IMG/VR virus record: IMGVR_UViG_3300030090_003273
Coordinates: 1 to 20,394 of that record
DNA: 20,394 bases
Source: a virus
Reading direction: 5' to 3' (one strand)
Numbering within the stretch: position 1 is the first letter of the stretch; every line of letters begins with the position of its first letter. The position numbers were made by a program, and so were the translations under genes. The notes beneath the pieces are model-generated. The model saw only the letters and a list, made by a program, of their open reading frames with translations, did no database searches and was not told the origin of the DNA. This document shows positions 1,600 through 17,224 of the stretch, in pieces.

Positions 1600-3783
1600 A
1601 TGACTATTACAACAACAACAATTAAAAACAGTTATTCTGGTGATGGTTCGCAAGATACATTTGCGTACACTTTTAAAATATCTGCAGATGCTGATATGCA
1701 GGTTATTATTAGATCATCTACTGGTTCAGAAACTGTAAAAACATTAACAACACATTATACAGTTACAAGTGCAGGTGCAGCTAGTGGTGGTAATGTAGTA
1801 TTTACAACTGGCAATATACCTGCAGCTACAGAAACAGTTGTATTAAGAAGAAATACTACACAAACACAAACATTAGATTTAGTTGAAAATGATCCATTTA
1901 CTGCGGATAGTGTTGAGGGAGCATTTGATAAAAACCTTGCAGCTATACAAGAATTACAAGAAGAAGTTAATCGTTCATTTAAAGTAAGTAGAACAAATAC
2001 AATTAGTAGTTCAGAATTTACAGATAGTGCTACTTCAAGAGCAAGTAAAACATTAGGATTTGATTCATCTGGAGATTTAACAACAGTTGCTGATTTTTTA
2101 CCTGCTGGTGGTGATAGTGCAATGTTTCAATATTCAACGACTACAACAGATTCTGATCCCGGAGATGGATATTTAAGATTAAATAATGCAACAATAGCGT
2201 CAGCAACTATAGCTTATATTGATGATAAAGAATATAACGGAACAGATGTATCAGCTTGGGTACAATCATTTGATGATGTATCTGGCAATGACACTAACAG
2301 AGGAAGAATAAGAATAAGTAAAGCTAATACTTTAGATACTTGGGCATCATTTAAAGTTACAGGAGCAGTAACAGATGCTACAGGATATACAAAAATAACA
2401 TTAGTTCACATTGATAGTGCAGGAACATTTACTAATGATGATAAAGTATTTGTATCATTTGTAGCAAGTGGTGAAGATGGAGCAATTCCTGGATATTATT
2501 ATAAATTTGCAACATCAACAACGGATAGTGATCCCGGAGGTGGATATTTAAGATTTAATAATGGTACTTATGCTTCAGCAACAGCAATCTACATTGATGA
2601 TGCTGATGCAAATGGATCAACAACACAAGCTGACACAATTACTTGGGATGATAGCACATCAACAATTAAAGGATATTTACACATTGTAGATATTAACGAC
2701 AGTTCAACATACGCAAGATTTTCTATAACTGGTAGTTCTACTGATGCTAGTGGTTATAATAAATTAGCGGTTACTCATTTAGTTTCAAATAATACTTTTT
2801 CAGCAGATGACGAATTGTCTGTTCATTTTACAAGAGTTGGTGATAAAGGTGATACAGGTAGTACAGGAAGCACAGGAGCAAGTGGAGTAGCAGGATTGGC
2901 TATGACTTGGAGCAGTTCAACTTCTGATGCTGATCCCGGAGCAGGAAAAATAGCATTTAATAATGGAACAGTATCAAGTGTATCTATATTGTATGTAGAT
3001 GATGCAGATGATGCTTCAGCAGATATATCTGGTTTTGTACAATCGTGGGATGATGTTTCAAATTCTACTGCAAGAGGATATGTTACTGTTACTAAAGAAG
3101 GTACTCCATCAACTTATGCTACTTTTAAGGTAAGTGGTGCTGTTACAGATGCAAGTGGTTATACTAAAGTTCCTGTAACTCATGTTGTGTCAAATGGTAC
3201 ATTTTCAAATACAGATGGAGTAGGAGTTCAGTTTGTACATTCTGGTGCAGATGGTTCAGATGGAGATATGACTTCATTTACATTAGCAGGTTCAGCAGGT
3301 GCAAATCAAACAATAACTAATGGCAATACAGTAACGATTGCAGCAGGTAATGGTATAACAACTACAGGTGGATCAACTGATACAGTAACAGTTGCAGTAG
3401 CTTCTACTGTAGTAGAAACAGATGAACAAAATACTTTTACTAAAGCACAATTACCTTCAACTTATACAGCGGCTTTGTCGGCAACATCTGGTGTTTTAGA
3501 TTATGACACTTATCAAAATTTTATTATTACTTTAGCTAGTGGTTCAAATACATTAGCTGCACCTACTACCGAAGCATCTCAAGTAGGGCAAACAGGAGTT
3601 ATTATATTTATTCAACCAAGTTCTTCTAGTGCTGGAACAGTAAGTTTGCATGGAGATTATGAAACACCAGCAGCAGGAGGATTAACTTTAAGTTCAACTA
3701 ATAATGCATATGATGTCGTGCCTTATATTGTTAAAGCTGATAATTCTATATTGTTAGGTAGTCCTCAACTTGCATTTGGATAA
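1600..3783 (+). CDS. Tail fibre protein with T7 gp17-like N-terminus and three internal repeats
   Basis: Residues ~5-130 match the T7 tail-fibre N-terminal (virion-anchoring) type: NSYSGDGSQDTFAYTF near the start, VVLRRNTTQTQ, then a helix with LQEEVNRSF. Three tandem copies of a ~115-residue module follow, at about residues 180-295, 303-415 and 436-550. Each opens with D(S/A)DPGxG and carries a YIDD/YVDD motif, a W-DD segment and a T(G/S)YxK element. A short collagen-like run (GDKGDTGSTGSTGASG) joins modules 2 and 3, as in trimeric phage fibres. The C-terminus is glycine/serine/threonine rich with no chaperone domain seen. The protein probably attaches to the tail and reaches the host receptor, with the distal function shared with the next two genes. 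The ATG lies 13 bases after the previous stop and has no obvious SD. Confidence 0.85.
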   Translation: MTITTTTIKNSYSGDGSQDTFAYTFKISADADMQVIIRSSTGSETVKTLTTHYTVTSAGAASGGNVVFTTGNIPAATETVVLRRNTTQTQTLDLVENDPFTADSVEGAFDKNLAAIQELQEEVNRSFKVSRTNTISSSEFTDSATSRASKTLGFDSSGDLTTVADFLPAGGDSAMFQYSTTTTDSDPGDGYLRLNNATIASATIAYIDDKEYNGTDVSAWVQSFDDVSGNDTNRGRIRISKANTLDTWASFKVTGAVTDATGYTKITLVHIDSAGTFTNDDKVFVSFVASGEDGAIPGYYYKFATSTTDSDPGGGYLRFNNGTYASATAIYIDDADANGSTTQADTITWDDSTSTIKGYLHIVDINDSSTYARFSITGSSTDASGYNKLAVTHLVSNNTFSADDELSVHFTRVGDKGDTGSTGSTGASGVAGLAMTWSSSTSDADPGAGKIAFNNGTVSSVSILYVDDADDASADISGFVQSWDDVSNSTARGYVTVTKEGTPSTYATFKVSGAVTDASGYTKVPVTHVVSNGTFSNTDGVGVQFVHSGADGSDGDMTSFTLAGSAGANQTITNGNTVTIAAGNGITTTGGSTDTVTVAVASTVVETDEQNTFTKAQLPSTYTAALSATSGVLDYDTYQNFIITLASGSNTLAAPTTEASQVGQTGVIIFIQPSSSSAGTVSLHGDYETPAAGGLTLSSTNNAYDVVPYIVKADNSILLGSPQLAFG

Positions 3784-3786
3784 AAT

Positions 3787-5229
3787 ATGTTTAGTAGCGA
3801 ATTATGGCAACAATCTGGAGTAAGCACATACTCTATAGACCAATCAATTAGGTTTAATGATGATGATTCAGCTTATATGCATAGAACACCAAGTGGTGCT
3901 GGAAATCAAAGAACTGCTACTTGGTCTTGTTGGATAAAAAGGGGAAATTTAACAACAGATTCTATGATGTTTGCTTGGTTATCTGATTCTAATAATTTAA
4001 TGCACTTTTATATAAGAGAGTTATCTTCATTTAATTGTCGTTTAGATTTTAATATAAGAGTTGGTTCTTCAACAACTAGAACTATGAATACAAATGCTGT
4101 ATTCCGAGATCCATCAGCTTGGTATAATTTTGTTATGGTAATAGATACAACACAAGCAGTATCTACTGAAAGATTTAGATTTTATGTAAATGGTCAAAGA
4201 ATAACAAGTTTTTCTTCCGAAACTTTATCAGCAAACATTTCACAAAATACTGATTTAATTATGAATACTACAAATAAAATGACGATTGGTGCATATTGGA
4301 ATGGTTCGTCAGTATCAACTTTTATGGATGCTTATATGGCTGATATAGTATGGATAGATGGCACAGCTTATGGTCCAGAAAACTTTGGAGAATTCAAAGA
4401 AGATGTTGGAATTTGGATTCCCAAAGATGTAAGTGAACTAACATTTGGTACTAATGGTTTTTATATTGATGGTAGAGATAGTTCAGATTTAGGAGATGAT
4501 GAGTCAGGGCAAGGTAATGACTACACTACATCTGGTCTTGCCTCACATGACCAAATGACCGATACACCAACAAATAATTTTCCAGTAATGAATCCATTAA
4601 GTAATTATTATGCTAGTAGTACATTTGCAGAAGGAAATTTAAAAGTTACACATGGAGGAAGTAGTATATATACATTTAATGAATCTACAATGGCTATGAC
4701 ATCTGGAAAGTGGTATGCAGAAGTTGATGTAGATGCAATGGATTCTACTCTTATAGGAGTAGCTGGTCAATCAAGTGGAGCTGCATCTCATATATTAGGA
4801 ACTAAAACTGACCAAGTTGGTTATTATGGGCCAGATGGAAATTATTATAAAAATAATTCTGCTACATCTTATGGTAATAGTTATGCAACTGGTGATATAA
4901 TTGGAATTGCATTAGATTTAGATAATAATAAACTATATTTTAGTAAGAATGGAACTTGGCAAAACAGTGGTGTTCCAACAAGTGGTGCAACTGGTACTGG
5001 TGCTATATCTATTCCTGCCGCATCTGCTACCTATAATTTTTCATATACATTTGCTTTTGGGGATTTTTCAAATAGTAGTGCTACATCTATAGCAAATTTT
5101 GGACAAGATGGAACTTTTGCTGGTAATGTAACTGCTGGTGGGAATAGTGATGGTAATGGAATTGGTAATTTTAAATATAGTGTACCAAGTGGATATTTGG
5201 CTTTGTGTACAAAGAATTTAGGGAGTTAA
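3787..5229 (+). CDS. Putative adhesin/tail protein with LamG-like and SPRY-like domains
   Basis: The start is 3 bases after the tail-fibre stop. Residues ~40-200 look like a concanavalin A/LamG fold: TWSCWIKRGN, a FRFYVNGQ strand, MTIGAYWNG, and a closing MADIVWIDGTAYGPENFG. A short linker with DDESGQGNDYT follows at ~237. Residues ~300-400 look SPRY-like: SGKWYAEVDV, IIGIALDLDNNKLYFSKNGTW. Such domains bind carbohydrate or protein on the host surface in phage tail proteins. There is no signal peptide or membrane segment. It is clearly related to the N-terminal ~480 residues of the next gene (shared CWIKRG/MWIKRG, DGTA, GKWY, KNGTW), so the two are tandem paralogues. Receptor binding is inferred from domain type and position, not demonstrated. 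Confidence 0.75.
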   Translation: MFSSELWQQSGVSTYSIDQSIRFNDDDSAYMHRTPSGAGNQRTATWSCWIKRGNLTTDSMMFAWLSDSNNLMHFYIRELSSFNCRLDFNIRVGSSTTRTMNTNAVFRDPSAWYNFVMVIDTTQAVSTERFRFYVNGQRITSFSSETLSANISQNTDLIMNTTNKMTIGAYWNGSSVSTFMDAYMADIVWIDGTAYGPENFGEFKEDVGIWIPKDVSELTFGTNGFYIDGRDSSDLGDDESGQGNDYTTSGLASHDQMTDTPTNNFPVMNPLSNYYASSTFAEGNLKVTHGGSSIYTFNESTMAMTSGKWYAEVDVDAMDSTLIGVAGQSSGAASHILGTKTDQVGYYGPDGNYYKNNSATSYGNSYATGDIIGIALDLDNNKLYFSKNGTWQNSGVPTSGATGTGAISIPAASATYNFSYTFAFGDFSNSSATSIANFGQDGTFAGNVTAGGNSDGNGIGNFKYSVPSGYLALCTKNLGS

Positions 5230-5230
5230 T

Positions 5231-7645
5231 ATGGCAGCACCAACAATAATAAGAGGCGAAGAACATTTCTTTACAACTTTATATGAAGGCAATGGTGGTG
5301 GGCAGAGGGTTGGTAAGTTCGTACCTTTCACAGATAATGGCACGATTGCTAATAGTTGTATATTTGATGAAGCAAGTTCTGCATATTTAAGTAAAACTTT
5401 TTCTGGTGATGGAGATAAACAAAAGTTTACTTTTTCTATGTGGATAAAAAGGGGTAATATAGGAAGTAGGATGGATTTTGTTTCTTTTAAACAAGATGTT
5501 CCTTTAATTTTTAATGCTGATAATACTTTATATGTTTATCTATTTGGAGCTAATGCTTTAACTACAAATAGAACATTTGAAGATACATCTAAATGGTATA
5601 ATATAGTTTTAAGTGTTGATTCTACAAATAGTACAGCAGATGACAGAGTAAGACTTTATGTAGATGGTGACCAAATAACTAGTTTTAGCACAAGAAATAA
5701 CCCATCTCTTAACGCATCAGCAAATATATATACTTCTACTAGAGAATTTATGTTTGGAAATATTGTTGGTGGTTCTTATTATACAGATGCTTATTTTGCA
5801 GAAGTAAATTATATAGACGGCACAGCATTAACACCATCAACCTTTGGCTTGACCGACACCTCAACTGGTAGATGGATTCCAAAAACATTAACTGGTATTA
5901 CATACGGAACTAATGGATTTAGATTAAAATTTCAAGATAGTTCAGCACTTGGAGATGATACGAGTGGAAATGGGAATGATCTAACTGCTACAAATTTAGC
6001 TAGTACAGATCAAACTACCAGTAGTCCTACTCAAAATTATAACACATTTGGTTCTTTTGCTTCTGGTACATCTGCAACTGAAGGTAATTTAACAATAAGC
6101 ACAGGAACAACTAATGGAGATACACAATGTGTAGGACAAGCTGGATTTGGTGTAGCAACTGGTAAATGGTATTGGGAAGCAAAAATTACAACAGTAGGTG
6201 CTGGATTATATGGTTGGAAAGATGATGCAAATGCTGGTGGTTCACAAGCAGTAAATACATCTAGTAATGGAACACATAGTACTAATAATAGTGCTGGTAT
6301 GTTGTCAACTGCTGCATCTGGTTCTTTTTCTTCTGGTTCGTGGTTTATAGATGGAGGTTATGGAGATGAAGTAAATTATACAACAGTTTCAACAAATGAT
6401 GTTTTAATGTTTGCAATAGATTTAGATACTGGTAAAGGATATTGTGGTAAGAATGGTACTTGGTTTAATAGTGCTAATCCAGCAAATGGTACAGGAGAAA
6501 TTGGTGGATGTCATTTTGCTAATGGTATAAATAAATTCTATCCAATGGCAAGAAGATTAGATTCAAATAGTGTTGCAGAGTATAATTTTGGACAAAGAAG
6601 TTTTGCACATACTCCACCAACGGGATTTTCTGCTCTACAACAAGACAACTTACCAGAAACAGCAAAAGGAGTAAGTGGATTTGTGTGGGTTAAGAACCGA
6701 GATAGTGCAAGTTTTAATCATGTTTTATATGATTCAAGTAGAGGTGTTCACAACTATCTTAATTCTAATACCACTGGCGCAGAAGGCACAGATTCAGATG
6801 GTCTTACAAAATTTTTAAAAGGTGGCTTTGCAACAGAAGATGCTGGATATACAAACACAAGCGGTAATTCTTTTGTAGGCTGGAACTGGGTAGCAAACGG
6901 AGGAACTACTGCAAGTAGCACAAACTCAACAGTACAAGTTAATTCAACATCAAAATTTTCTATAGTGCAATATAATGGAACAGGGTCTGACCAAACAATA
7001 GGACATGGGTTAGGTGTAACACCAGATACCATTTGGGTAAAATGTATTACTGAAAATTCAGCAACTGGAAGTGGAGTATCTTGGAGAATTTGGCAAAAAG
7101 ATGTAATAAGTTTATCTAGTGATGCCAATAGTTATTTAAGATTTGATTCTGATGATTCGCATACTGCTGGTGGAGATTCTTGGGGAGATACCGCACCTAC
7201 ATCAAGTGTGTTTACAGTTGGTGCAGATGTACATACAAATGCTTCAGTTAGTGGTGGAACAGCACAATACATAGCTTATTGTTTTGCTAATGTTGATGGT
7301 TATTTTAAAACTGGTAAATATGTTGGTAATTCTAGTAGTGACGGAAGTTTTATCTATTTAGGTTTTAAACCAGCTTTTTTGATGGTGAAAGCTTACAATT
7401 TAGGTTCTGATTTTCAAATATGGGACAATGCTCGTAGTCCAATTAATCCAATAACTAATAAAGCACTTTTTCCAGATTTAACAAATGCAGAGGGTGGAAC
7501 ACATACTTTGGATTTACTTTCCAATGGTTTTAAATTAAGAAGCACAGAAAATTGGGTAAACAGTAGTAGTTATACTTATGTGTATTGGGCATTTGCTGAA
7601 CATCCATTTGTAGGTGATGGAACAAATCCAGTTACTGCTAGATAA
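5231..7645 (+). CDS. Putative adhesin with LamG-like, SPRY-like and C-terminal DUF7483-like domains
   Basis: It starts one base after the previous stop, with SD GGGAG five bases before the ATG. The domain order is: N-terminal extension (~1-55); LamG-like (~60-206, FTFSMWIKRGN to YFAEVNYIDGTALTPSTFG); linker GDDTSGNGND (~241); SPRY-like (~311-410, TGKWYWEAKI to GYCGKNGTWF); then two stretches resembling DUF7483 of phage tail proteins (~478-560, GFVWVKNRDSASFNHVLYDSSRG to NSFVGWNWVANGG; and ~573-803, with YNGTGSDQTIGHGLGVTPDTIWVK, YIGFKPAF-type strand pairs and YVYWAFAEHPF). The first ~480 residues parallel the upstream gene; the C-terminal ~320 are extra. It most likely forms part of the host-recognition apparatus. 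DUF7483 is named from pattern memory and needs a profile search. Confidence 0.75.
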   Translation: MAAPTIIRGEEHFFTTLYEGNGGGQRVGKFVPFTDNGTIANSCIFDEASSAYLSKTFSGDGDKQKFTFSMWIKRGNIGSRMDFVSFKQDVPLIFNADNTLYVYLFGANALTTNRTFEDTSKWYNIVLSVDSTNSTADDRVRLYVDGDQITSFSTRNNPSLNASANIYTSTREFMFGNIVGGSYYTDAYFAEVNYIDGTALTPSTFGLTDTSTGRWIPKTLTGITYGTNGFRLKFQDSSALGDDTSGNGNDLTATNLASTDQTTSSPTQNYNTFGSFASGTSATEGNLTISTGTTNGDTQCVGQAGFGVATGKWYWEAKITTVGAGLYGWKDDANAGGSQAVNTSSNGTHSTNNSAGMLSTAASGSFSSGSWFIDGGYGDEVNYTTVSTNDVLMFAIDLDTGKGYCGKNGTWFNSANPANGTGEIGGCHFANGINKFYPMARRLDSNSVAEYNFGQRSFAHTPPTGFSALQQDNLPETAKGVSGFVWVKNRDSASFNHVLYDSSRGVHNYLNSNTTGAEGTDSDGLTKFLKGGFATEDAGYTNTSGNSFVGWNWVANGGTTASSTNSTVQVNSTSKFSIVQYNGTGSDQTIGHGLGVTPDTIWVKCITENSATGSGVSWRIWQKDVISLSSDANSYLRFDSDDSHTAGGDSWGDTAPTSSVFTVGADVHTNASVSGGTAQYIAYCFANVDGYFKTGKYVGNSSSDGSFIYLGFKPAFLMVKAYNLGSDFQIWDNARSPINPITNKALFPDLTNAEGGTHTLDLLSNGFKLRSTENWVNSSSYTYVYWAFAEHPFVGDGTNPVTAR

Positions 7646-12736: not shown

Positions 12737-12937
12737 ATGAGTAATAAATACGATTTAGCAATACAACGAAAAAAAGAAATTGTAGCCAAGTATGGTGGTA
12801 AAAACTTATCTGAAAAGTTAAATATATCTCACCCTGCAGTTTCTAAATGGGAAGTCATACCACAATTAAGGGCGTACCAGATTGCAAGTTTTGGTGATTA
12901 CAAATTAGAATATATTAGACCAGATTTAAGTTTTTAA
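12737..12937 (+). CDS. Cro/YdaS-like helix-turn-helix repressor
   Basis: A 66-aa protein matching the small Cro/YdaS pattern: an N-terminal helix (YDLAIQRKKEIVAKYGG), a helix-turn-helix at ~22-41 with recognition helix SHPAVSKWEV, then IPQLRAYQIA and a closing RPDL. Such proteins bind DNA as dimers and control early phage promoters. It lies divergent to the SSB operon, next to two dyad sequences, one of which recurs upstream of the early operon. It has a consensus -35 but no SD, so it may be made from a leaderless message. The next gene starts two bases after its stop. No integrase or CI partner is visible, so whether it belongs to a lysogeny switch is unknown. Confidence 0.82.
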   Translation: MSNKYDLAIQRKKEIVAKYGGKNLSEKLNISHPAVSKWEVIPQLRAYQIASFGDYKLEYIRPDLSF

Positions 12938-14203: not shown

Positions 14204-14371
14204 TTACTCTCCTACTTTTTCTATATCAGAAACAAATACTTGTGGGTCAGTTATTGAGTTAATTTGACCACAAATTGCCATTTCTTTAACATCTTCTTCA
14301 CAATCTGCTTTAACATAAGTTGTTTCAGTAGTTGTAACTATACATCTGTATAAATTTTTATATTTTTTCAT
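14204..14371 (-). CDS. Small 55-aa protein after the helicase
   Basis: A 55-residue frame (MKKYKNLYRCIVTTTETTYVKADCEEDVKEMAICGQ and on) overlapping the helicase stop by four bases (ATGA) and ending three bases before the next start. Three cysteines are widely spaced. The strand-helix-strand plan (YRCIVTTTETTYVKADCEEDVKEMA) suggests a small alpha/beta protein. Its last codons carry the AGGAG used by the 93-aa gene. Function unknown. Confidence 0.65.
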   Translation of the reverse strand: MKKYKNLYRCIVTTTETTYVKADCEEDVKEMAICGQINSITDPQVFVSDIEKVGE

Positions 14372-15852
14372 AATCTAACTCCTTTTGATTTAGCTTTTTT
14401 AATTTGTAAATGCTTAATAAAATTATGCACTTCGTTAGTAGGTGGTATGGGCAAGACCATTTTAGAATGGGGAAAGTGATGGAATTTTTCTCTAAAAGTA
14501 TGACTTGCCCACCCCTCTTTATACCCTTTTTGTTTTGCAATAAACAATAGTTGGGCATAAAACCTTTTTTTATCTTCTGCTTTTGTTTCTTTCATTTTTG
14601 GTAATTCTATTAATCTACCTTGTTTAATTAACATAATCTGTTCTTTTTTAGTTGGTATGTGAGAACAGTTTGGACATTCTGGTTCTTCTTTTGTAGGTTT
14701 GTAAACAAAATCACATTTAACACAAGTATAAGGTTGTTTTTCAATAGGCACAGGTTCTTTCTTTTTTCTTTCTTTTTCTTCTCTGCGTTTTAATTCCCAT
14801 TTAGGTACATCTTCTGGGAATCCGTGTTCATATATGCAACCACTATGATCTATTATTAATGTGTCGTTTTTATCTGGGTGTGGTCTTAATGATCTACCTA
14901 CCATTTGCAAATACATTCCATAAGATTTTGTAGGGCGACAAATCACTACACAAGAAACTTTTGGACAATCCCACCCCTCCGTCAGTATCATACAATTTGA
15001 TAACACTTTAATTTTATCTTCCTGTAAATCTTTTAACACTTGCTCTCTATCTTCATCATTCATTTCACTATCAATATGTCCTGCTGGCACACCATTTTGA
15101 TTAAATATGTTGGCTATATATTTACTATGGGCAATACTACTAGCAAAAACAACTGTTGGCCTGTTCTCTGCAAACTTGATCCAATGAGTTACAGTATCGC
15201 CAACTAATTTTGTTTTATTCATTCTTTTATCTAATTCTCTTTTGTCATAGTCGCCCATTGAAATTTTTAATCCCTGTAAATCTGGAATACTAGGTGCAAA
15301 AACTCTGTTCTTAACAAGATACCCTTGTGCAGTTAAATCTCTTATATTACTACTCTCTACTAACTCATCATAAATATTGCCAAGTGGTTTTCCGTCATTT
15401 CTAATTGGTGTTGCGGTTAATCCCACGACATAAGCATCTGGATATTCTTCTAATAATTTTTTAAATGTATCACTCGTTGATCTGTGTGCCTCATCTAAAA
15501 TAATCAAATCTGCATCTGGTTTAATAAAATCGTCATTATCTTTTCTGGCAGTATAAGTTTGAATACTTGCTACTTGTGTGTCGTGTAAATAACTTCCTGT
15601 AATACCTGCCATTATCACTCCTGCATCAATTCCAAATTGATGTAATTTATTGGAACATTGCATCACAAGTTCACGCCTGTGAGCTACAAACAAACAACAT
15701 TTATTTTTCTCTCTCGCTTTTTCTATCATTCTACTTGCAATAACAGTTTTACCACTCCCTGTTGGAGCGACTAATAAAACTTTCTTATTTCCTTGTTGAA
15801 ATTTTTGTTTTATTTGCTCTATGGCAAACTCTTGATATTCACGCAGTTGCAT
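14368..15852 (-). CDS. Superfamily 2 DEAD/DEAH helicase with zinc ribbon
   Basis: 494 aa. Motifs in order: Q-like start (REYQ, 4-7), Walker A APTGSGKT (29-36), Ia VAHRREL, DEAH (120-123), TATP (146-149), VVFASSI (234-240), EGWDCP (292-297) and motif VI QMVGRSLRP (316-324). Then comes a zinc ribbon C377-x2-C380, C393-x2-C396. This is the SSL2/UvsW-like phage helicase type: an ATP-dependent translocase acting on branched DNA or at replication start. The basic tail (RREEKERKKKEP) precedes the ribbon. It overlaps the primase gene by 14 bases and is presumably its replication partner. The C-terminal GVRL and stop form the ribosome site and start of the next gene. Confidence 0.92.
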   Translation of the reverse strand: MQLREYQEFAIEQIKQKFQQGNKKVLLVAPTGSGKTVIASRMIEKAREKNKCCLFVAHRRELVMQCSNKLHQFGIDAGVIMAGITGSYLHDTQVASIQTYTARKDNDDFIKPDADLIILDEAHRSTSDTFKKLLEEYPDAYVVGLTATPIRNDGKPLGNIYDELVESSNIRDLTAQGYLVKNRVFAPSIPDLQGLKISMGDYDKRELDKRMNKTKLVGDTVTHWIKFAENRPTVVFASSIAHSKYIANIFNQNGVPAGHIDSEMNDEDREQVLKDLQEDKIKVLSNCMILTEGWDCPKVSCVVICRPTKSYGMYLQMVGRSLRPHPDKNDTLIIDHSGCIYEHGFPEDVPKWELKRREEKERKKKEPVPIEKQPYTCVKCDFVYKPTKEEPECPNCSHIPTKKEQIMLIKQGRLIELPKMKETKAEDKKRFYAQLLFIAKQKGYKEGWASHTFREKFHHFPHSKMVLPIPPTNEVHNFIKHLQIKKAKSKGVRL

Positions 15853-16633
15853 ATCTTCTCCACATATCGTCTAATTGCCATAATACTTCCTGTTCTGAAT
15901 CTGGTGGATTACACATACTATTAAACTTTAATACTTCTGCTTTTGCATACTGATATTCCTCTCCACGCTTAATTATTGAAATTACCATTTTGACTAATCT
16001 AGCGTGTCTATCACCTTGTGTTGCTCCTGTCATACCACCTGTATATTTATGTGTATAATTTGGATTATGTACAAACACTCTTTTTTTTGGTCTTTCTAAA
16101 CCAAAACCATCTCTAATTTCTTCTTTTGTGTATTCTGACATTATGTTTTGTTGAATAACTTTTACAGGATATGGTTCTTTTTTATTATGCCAAAAACCTG
16201 CACATCTCATTATTCTAGGTAAATCTTTTACAACAGGATCACTTCCAAACTTACTTGCTAATGCCTGTTGGTAAAGAGTAAAACTTTCTAATGGCATATC
16301 TTTTACTAGCCAATAGGTATGATATTTATTAGGACTTGTATTTACTATAAAATGTGGCTCTACATCAAACTTTTCTGGCATTGGTGTTCCGTCAAAATCA
16401 CAAAATACTGCTCTTATCTTTTTAATGTTTTTAGTTGTTCTGCCCTGCAAATCAGTTTCATTGACAGTAAAATAAACTCCTGCACCCTTTTGATTTAATT
16501 CTGACAGTTCATCTATATGCTCGTCAATATGTCCGTGCAATTGTTTTATAAGTCTTTTATTCTTACCCTTATCACAAAAACATTGAAAACTATTTGTTAA
16601 ACCAAATGGATATAAAAAATCGTAATACATCAT
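15839..16633 (-). CDS. RepB-like/AEP-type DNA primase
   Basis: 264 aa with archaeo-eukaryotic primase core motifs: D79-x-D81 in AVFCDFDG (metal ligands), H105 in NKYHTYWLV (sxH-type motif), and D132 to R143 in SDPVVKDLPRIMRCAGFWHNKK. This final block is the 'D..R..R.PG..N.K' signature of RepB-like and phage primases. The C-terminal part (GDRHARLVKMVISIIKRG) looks like a primase C-terminal helical unit. It would make primers at the phage origin. The start is ATGATG with a weak AAGAG SD, overlapping the 21-aa peptide by four bases. The next gene is the helicase; primase and helicase as separate adjacent genes replace a fused T7-type protein. Confidence 0.82.
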   Translation of the reverse strand: MMYYDFLYPFGLTNSFQCFCDKGKNKRLIKQLHGHIDEHIDELSELNQKGAGVYFTVNETDLQGRTTKNIKKIRAVFCDFDGTPMPEKFDVEPHFIVNTSPNKYHTYWLVKDMPLESFTLYQQALASKFGSDPVVKDLPRIMRCAGFWHNKKEPYPVKVIQQNIMSEYTKEEIRDGFGLERPKKRVFVHNPNYTHKYTGGMTGATQGDRHARLVKMVISIIKRGEEYQYAKAEVLKFNSMCNPPDSEQEVLWQLDDMWRRYATA

Positions 16634-16695
16634 CTCTTATGTTCCCACCAATACACAAACAAACCTAAAATCATATAAACTAAAACTATTTCCAT
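16630..16695 (-). CDS. 21-aa membrane micro-peptide
   Basis: A 21-codon frame lies exactly between the DUF1376 and primase genes: its ATG shares one base with the DUF1376 stop (TAATG), and its stop overlaps the primase start (ATGA). The peptide is a single hydrophobic helix (MEIVLVYMILGLFVYWW) with a charged end (EHKR). The exact fit at both junctions argues against chance. It could be a real membrane peptide or a translation-coupling leader for the primase. Confidence 0.5.
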   Translation of the reverse strand: MEIVLVYMILGLFVYWWEHKR

Positions 16696-17072
16696 TATTT
16701 ACCCCACCTAATTTTAGCACCAAGTTTCCCTGCCTTTTGTTTTTTAACTCTGTTTATAGCTTGTTCTTTTCTTTCCTGTTCTGCTTGAACACATATAAAA
16801 TAAGTTTTTCCGTTTCGCTCTTTCTTTACTAAAAATTTTTTCTCTACTAACTTTGCAAATATTCTGCGAATTTTATCAATAGTACAATTACACATTCTAC
16901 TTAATACTTCTTCGTCATACTCTATTTCAAAACTCACCCAACAACGACAATATAGCAAGATATATGCTCCTTGTTCTTCTAAACTTAATTTTACTCTGTC
17001 ATTACTCGCTAACCAATCGTTAGCATAAAACCTAAAAATAGGTGATTGTTCTTCCCTAGTTGTTCTTCTCAT
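16695..17072 (-). CDS. DUF1376 (YdaU-type) replication-associated protein
   Basis: 125 aa. The N-terminus has the DUF1376 pattern SPIFRFYANDWLASND, KLSLEEQGAYILLYCRCW, then a winged-helix-like stretch with LSRMCNCTIDKIRRIFAKLVEKKFLV, and a basic tail (INRVKKQKAGKLGAKIRWGK) suited to DNA contact. DUF1376 proteins are found at the start of phage replication operons beside helicase or primase genes and are thought to act in replication initiation. SD AAGGA lies before the ATG, inside the end of the upstream 48-aa frame. Full-length DUF1376 proteins often carry a longer C-terminal region; this one is short. Confidence 0.78.
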   Translation of the reverse strand: MRRTTREEQSPIFRFYANDWLASNDRVKLSLEEQGAYILLYCRCWVSFEIEYDEEVLSRMCNCTIDKIRRIFAKLVEKKFLVKKERNGKTYFICVQAEQERKEQAINRVKKQKAGKLGAKIRWGK

Positions 17073-17077
17073 TTACA

Positions 17078-17224
17078 TTATCCTTGTTGTTCTATCTTGG
17101 TAGTATAAGTGTAAGTATAGGCATTGGTATTGGTATAGGTATATGTATAGCTATATTTTGCCATTAGCAAAACGATAGCACAACTATGGCATTGCCATAA
17201 CATATTTTTACACCATTTAATCAT
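17078..17224 (-). CDS. Small 48-aa protein with Tyr-Thr repeat
   Basis: A 48-residue frame with its ATG overlapping the previous gene's stop by eight bases. The N-terminal part is Cys/Trp-rich (WCKNMLWQCHSC) with a short hydrophobic stretch (AIVLLM). Residues ~24-42 are an alternating Y-T/N-T repeat encoded by a hexamer tandem repeat. It ends KIEQQG five bases before the DUF1376 start, and its last codons carry that gene's SD. The frame fits the gap-free operon, but the repeat may instead be a DNA element read by chance. Internal ATGs at 17203 and 17164 are alternative starts. Confidence 0.45.
   Translation of the reverse strand: MIKWCKNMLWQCHSCAIVLLMAKYSYTYTYTNTNAYTYTYTTKIEQQG
17102..17155. 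repeat. Imperfect hexamer tandem repeat, about nine units
   Basis: Nine six-base units follow one another, consensus GGTATA/AGTATA on the plus strand (TATACC/TATACT on the minus): AGTATA, AGTGTA, AGTATA, GGCATT, GGTATT, GGTATA, GGTATA, TGTATA, GCTATA. It lies immediately upstream of the DUF1376-primase-helicase genes, where an iteron-like origin would be reasonable. Confidence 0.65.

Follow-up and report, generated by a model that had tools for sequence, protein, structure and literature searches.

What does a tandem hexamer array do immediately in front of the replication genes of a marine virus, when an open reading frame (ORF) runs through its whole length? The window analyzed herein is a virus record of 20,394 bp, IMG/VR IMGVR_UViG_3300030090_003273. 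In its minus-strand early region, the genes for a DUF1376 protein, a RepB_primase-type primase and a DEAD/ResIII helicase are consecutive, and the array lies just before DUF1376. A preliminary description of this DNA offered two readings, an iteron-like origin and a fast-evolving beta-strand peptide, or both at once. The phage group concerned is marine and was recovered from many metagenomes, with one isolate, Pelagibacter phage Baldr, whose host is SAR11 (HTCC1062). Baldr was also the sole relative among annotated phages (INPHARED) in DNA and protein searches.

Several origin systems provide a background for these readings. The basal unwinding system of bacterial oriC comprises DnaA-boxes, a short GC-rich spacer and DnaA-trios (3'-GAT-5'), according to the available text of PMC8287927. 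In RepA_N plasmid and satellite replicons, for which the accessible parts of PMC5703833 and PMC7145576 describe pSK41, pTZ2162 and PLE RepA, iterons converge on poly-A tracts. In Vibrio cholerae ori2/RctB and in iteron plasmids (TrfA, RepE), iterons lie beside short DUE repeats, and the initiator binds both double and single strands (PMC10797057, available sections). We show herein that the array belongs to a conserved DNA module, and argue that this module is probably a replication origin.

Results

A period-6 array in front of the DUF1376 gene

The features of the region are as follows.

14368..15852, minus strand: DEAD/ResIII helicase (protein-family matches)
15839..16633, minus strand: RepB_primase-type primase (protein-family matches)
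16695..17072, minus strand: DUF1376 protein, 125 aa, proposed initiator (PF07120, E 3e-8)
17078..17224, minus strand: 48-codon ORF over the module; ATG start, reads ...YSYTYTYTNTNAYTYTYT...; a GTG start gives 54 codons
17092..17098, minus strand: AAGATAG tail closing the module; AAGATA is conserved, and AAGATAG was an anchor in one DNA scan
17103..17150, minus strand: hexamer array, 8 units (Tandem Repeats Finder, autocorrelation, exact coordinates)
17156..17172, minus strand: inverted repeat TTTTGCTAATGGCAAAA between iterons and array, retained in many relatives
17167..17177, minus strand: iteron 3, degenerate, TATCGTTTTGC (consecutive 11-bp block)
17178..17188, minus strand: iteron 2, degenerate, CATAGTTGTGC (consecutive 11-bp block)
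17189..17199, minus strand: iteron 1, TATGGCAATGC (exact coordinates; lag-11 autocorrelation)

The minus-strand sequence of the array is nearly free of G, and its units read CTATAC ATATAC CTATAC CAATAC CAATGC CTATAC TTACAC TTATAC. Tandem Repeats Finder reported a repeat at 17103-17155 with a period of 6, 8.8 copies and 78% matches. Over the best stretch of 48 nt, the base six positions further on was identical at 38 of 48 positions; first-order Markov simulations of the window reached a maximum of 31 of 48, and none of 300 attained the observed value. The array is thus real and far above chance, and the earlier claim of a period-6 repeat before the DUF1376, primase and helicase genes was borne out.

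The array belongs to a larger module

On the minus strand, in the direction of DUF1376, the module consists of three 11-bp blocks, the inverted repeat, the hexamer array and AAGATAG. The iterons, the inverted repeat and the tail all lie inside the interval 17078-17224 to which the preliminary description had drawn attention, where they had gone unnoticed. On the plus strand, iteron 1 appears at 17185-17199 as a hyphenated palindrome, TATGGCA-T-TGCCATA. Sixty-six distinct elements were derived from the 115 of 128 sequences that were matched by a regular expression (the other 13 were not counted), and over these elements the lag-11 autocorrelation had a z of 30, denoting an 11-bp periodicity. 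Direct repeats spaced by a helical turn near an initiator gene, the feature expected of an iteron origin, are present here, with DUF1376 as the putative initiator. The proposal of an iteron-like origin therefore stands in part: a conserved DNA module does lie beside the replication genes, but it is the 11-bp repeats, not the hexamers, that are the iterons.

In three relatives (L015, L017 and L025), a different palindrome, AAATCGCATATGCGATTT, replaces the usual inverted repeat beside the array, upstream of DUF1376, as if symmetry rather than letters were kept.

Linkage of the module to DUF1376

A scan of IMG/VR with DUF1376 yielded 80 loci with protein identities of 51-99%, and the module was found upstream of the gene, on the same strand, in 78 of them. 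These comprise 76 loci in which the hexamer score was 27 or more out of 30, together with L061 and L075, which were read by eye and whose array units carry irregular insertions; in L074 and L077, the module was not found in the partial records. Absence or scrambling of the repeat in relatives, named beforehand as the observation that would speak against the earlier proposal, was thus not what the loci displayed. The reverse strand reached an equal hexamer score in 3 of the 76 loci, and the distance from the array start to DUF1376 had a median of 112 bp (range 60-535; 76 loci). Two scans with module DNA that ignored DUF1376 gave 46 and 25 matching contigs, of which 43 and 22, respectively, carried the gene, the two scans overlapping each other and the 80-locus set. 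Of 19 joined records, 18 contained a single copy of the module array, along with some other low-complexity runs that match the same looser pattern.

Another phage group (L099, L128, L135-L138 and L139) also bears iterons, an inverted repeat and hexamers, the latter of the WWYACC type. DUF1376 was not found in contigs L099 and L128, whose early regions are cut off. Among L135-L138 the search covered the L136 record (G016; 37,183 bp, early region cut off), in which the best match of the family profile had an E of only 0.07. The L139 record (G017) encodes a distant DUF1376-like protein about 3.7 kb from the module (5360-6064, minus strand), which was missed by Pfam at E 0.01 and detected by the family profile at E 8e-6. 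A scan from a neighbor gene of L128 returned L128 itself only.

In bacterial and archaeal genomes (84,980 species), the pattern CCCTTCAYCTTCAYCTTCAN{10,36}CAAGATA gave one match, a low-complexity sequence attributed to chance; this pattern recalls 50 of the 66 phage elements, so divergent copies would escape it. Twenty-three plasmid records matched and were read as low-complexity from the covered part of the query and one region inspected. Matches in MW202566 and MH319738 were rejected as coding low complexity, and L124 and L129 were rejected by eye as chance matches. The module is unnamed in the literature found by a search that covered few subscription journals.

A P22_Cro-type repressor gene is located at 12737-12937 on the plus strand of the window. 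In relatives L006-L009, L011 and L012, a similar Cro gene ends directly upstream of the module, and the differing positions indicate that gene order has been rearranged.

Composition and length of the array

Most relatives have units of CTNCAH, in which C (97%), T (97%), C (98%) and A (96%) occupy positions 1, 2, 4 and 5 (422 bases per position), position 3 is variable (T 67%) and position 6 is never G. The window lineage has mostly CTATAC or CAATAC units, a variant written WATAC(C/T). The L139 array mixes ATCACC, TTCACC, ATTACC and TATACA, and so provides a link between array types. Seven units are modal, being found in 43 of the 60 CTTCA-type arrays. Position 3 is T in all 60 first units versus 12 of 50 seventh units, drifting to A or G; this loss of T along the array makes it polar. 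Moreover, 47 distinct unit orders occur among the 60 arrays, which argues against a single frozen copy.

The span from the inverted repeat to AAGATA, obtained with a regular expression that uses alternative left anchors, was 63 bp in 42 of the 66 distinct elements, 64 bp in 9, 69 bp in 8 and 58 bp in 2, with 56, 57, 59, 67 and 74 bp found once each; these counts are not independent, since the elements are related by descent. The spans cluster at 57-58, 63-64 and 69 bp, so length appears to change mostly in steps of six.

The reading frame is not conserved

An in-frame Tyr-Thr reading frame of 48 aa, as previously described, does exist as an ATG-started ORF (17224-17078). A small, fast-evolving protein with Tyr-Thr repeats in the window, or Ser-Pro/Thr repeats in relatives, would explain why an ATG-started frame spans the array. 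It would also fit the finding that, in 51 of 60 CTTCA-type arrays, frame a has an upstream start codon with no stop in between, 50 of these being open throughout, and the deposited annotation of Baldr, which starts a coding sequence inside the element. Such openness is trivial, since stops are scarce in every frame of an array that nearly lacks G.

The preliminary description had suggested that a comparison of relatives would distinguish a protein from a DNA element, and the outcome favors the latter: the base pattern is conserved and the reading frame is not. The frame that begins ATG GCA AAA encodes Tyr-Thr in the window, L001, L003, L004 and L073, and Leu-Tyr/Gln-Tyr in L002. L002 is the nearest relative, with a DUF1376 that is 99% identical, and it keeps the same hexamers in a shifted frame (MAKQCLYLYQYQYLYLHLYY against MAKYSYTYTYTNTNAYTYTYT); the frame of a Tyr-Thr protein is thus not kept even in a close relative. 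In CTTCA-type arrays, frame a is (NCA)(HCT), so that positions 3 and 6, the variable ones, each fall on the first base of a codon, where changes alter the residue. In addition, 14 of the 66 elements lack an ATG, 3 of the other 52 contain an internal stop, and the 48-codon ORF has no PHROG or Pfam match. A Leu-His frame (CTN.CAH), in which the changes are apparently synonymous, was rejected as well, 44 of 60 arrays having no start codon before the upstream stop. The frame change in L002, the variable first codon positions and the ATG losses and stops speak against the beta-strand peptide. The small-protein explanation is largely refuted, and we accord it a very slight chance; the 48-codon ORF is probably not a gene, and it is nearly certain that the module is non-coding DNA.

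At 32360-32731 of Baldr (OQ414636), the coding sequence WDQ27616.1 starts within the module, and its first residues come from the array (32377 on). This start is probably misplaced.

Properties of the DUF1376 protein

The window DUF1376 scores 34.3 bits against PF07120, above the Pfam gathering cut-off of 30.1, and all 41 aligned members match this family, with E up to 1. The protein is mostly about 117-142 aa long in these phages, and in PHROG it matches primosomal and replication initiation proteins. An AlphaFold2 model (pLDDT 79) has the winged-helix order of helices and strands, to which a long helix is added at the C terminus. In a Foldseek search with this model, the five top matches were plasmid initiator N-domains (4pql, 5kbj and 4pt7; E 0.007-0.02); VIA-align placed 4pql first (Z 7.4, rmsd 2.9 over 83 residues), with a Fur chain at Z 7.3. 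The available text of PMC7145576 identifies 4PT7 and 4PTA as staphylococcal RepA_N initiators. The modeled fold is thus suggestive of RepA_N plasmid initiators, at a level below that which would exclude a generic winged helix. PF06970 was not among the best 25 of 26 Pfam families for the 41 DUF1376 members, and no PDB sequence matched the DUF1376 alignment at E <0.02.

GC skew and stability around the module

GC skew in the right half exceeded that in the left half in 13 of 18 records, but in the mean profile the element ranked only 27th of 100 rotations; the record G002, with an array that departs from the unit pattern, was excluded for this reason. Duplex stability was compared on both sides of the module. 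For the 100 bp downstream, the least stable 50-bp window reached the 90th genome percentile or higher in 16 of 18 records; for an upstream stretch of equal length this held in 4 of 18. In most relatives, the unstable DNA downstream overlaps a TTGAC-type promoter, and the window lineage lacks such instability (G001, 68th percentile).

Discussion

The anatomy of the module, its genetic linkage and its initiator-like partner lead us to propose that it is a phage replication origin in front of the initiator gene, of which the hexamer repeat forms the distal half. We put the probability of this reading at roughly two in three.

Other roles for the DNA have to be weighed against it. The module might be an operator or enhancer to which DUF1376 or Cro binds, and which controls the early promoter that drives the replication operon. 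A TTGAC-type -35 follows AAGATA in most relatives, with a full -35/-10 pattern in 32 of 66 elements, and in several relatives the module directly follows a Cro-like gene, P22_Cro being located elsewhere in the window. However, the window, L001-L004 and L073 keep the module without a following promoter, in DNA that is packed between ORFs, and TTGACA is likewise missing after the module in L128 and L139. The array is also long, polar and mostly quantized in length, from which the usual operators differ. We therefore regard a control region as unlikely, though worth bearing in mind.

A site for packaging, partition or some other DNA recognition unrelated to initiation is suggested by the 11-bp iterons, which occur in plasmid centromeres too, and by the position of the L128 module, near terminase-like genes as judged by eye. 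In Baldr, on the contrary, the terminase large subunit gene (3184-4590) is separated from the module (32.3 kb) by about 10 kb of the circular map; no partition genes were found in the Baldr annotation or among the scanned window proteins, and the steady neighbor of the module is a replication gene. Such a role is quite improbable. Slippage readily yields short tandem units, and a neutral microsatellite could arise in this way. Yet place and strand are constant in 78 of 80 loci down to about 51% DUF1376 identity, and four unit positions are kept at 96-98% while two vary, in 47 unit orders among 60 arrays, which leaves neutrality with hardly any probability.

As an origin, the module is called here a variant iteron origin that resembles the DnaA-box/DnaA-trio system without belonging to it. 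Both have, in this order, double-strand sites, a short C-rich spacer (TATCCCC/ATAGCCC in most relatives) and a directional array of three-base structure, and the polarity of the CTN triplets is that of a sequence complementary to 3'-GAN-5' (PMC8287927, available text). Unlike oriC as described there, the module has a period of six instead of three, every second triplet is CAH, and it occurs in phages with a DUF1376 gene (PMC8287927). A DnaA-box origin was rejected, since TTWTNCACA (at most one mismatch) occurs in 36 of 66 elements versus 57% of shuffles, at scattered positions. Runs of at least three 3'-NAN-5' trios are found in 55 of the 66 elements and rest on the variable positions 3 and 6.

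With the RepA_N replicons the module shares a winged-helix N-domain as best fold match, iterons that are semi-palindromic direct repeats, and, as a putative origin, a position in or beside the initiator gene (PMC5703833, PMC7145576, accessible parts). It differs in its hexamer array, none being mentioned for RepA_N in those parts, and in a DUF1376 protein without the long C-terminal portion (PMC5703833, PMC7145576). Iterons next to short repeats are a feature that the module has in common with ori2 and the TrfA and RepE plasmids, and the ATCACC units of L128 and L139 are similar to the (G/A)ATCA repeats of ori2, whereas the initiators of ori2, TrfA and RepE systems are other proteins and the array of the module is made of hexamers in nearly fixed number (PMC10797057, available sections).

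If the module acts as an origin, DUF1376 would bind the iterons, spaced one helical turn apart, and its assembly would then extend over, or melt, the hexamer array. The alternating CTN/CAH triplets may supply a directional register for a single strand or a filament. Opening would proceed into the less stable downstream DNA, where either host factors or the primase and helicase of the phage would be loaded. In the window lineage, the units would have drifted to CTATAC/CAATAC, with iterons, inverted repeat and tail retained. A single-strand or filament role of the array is a tentative suggestion, which we hold to be somewhat doubtful. Equally speculative is the idea that the array is an independent phage counterpart of the DnaA-trios, whose CTN/CAH code would be read in six-base steps by a winged-helix initiator or its filament, not by an AAA+ protein, and might drift to WATAC(C/T) or ATCACC without loss of function. 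An origin at this site would give a role to DUF1376, a domain of 'unknown function', provide a short motif for finding origins in metagenomic phages, and constitute an independent case bearing on whether triplet-structured arrays are a general way of opening origins.

A G-free 12-base repeat, CCATTACCAACA, was also observed inside gene 62 of Mycobacterium phage Malithi (1497-1542 of locus L134), which is annotated as a replication initiation gene; this repeat is possibly an origin inside an initiator gene.
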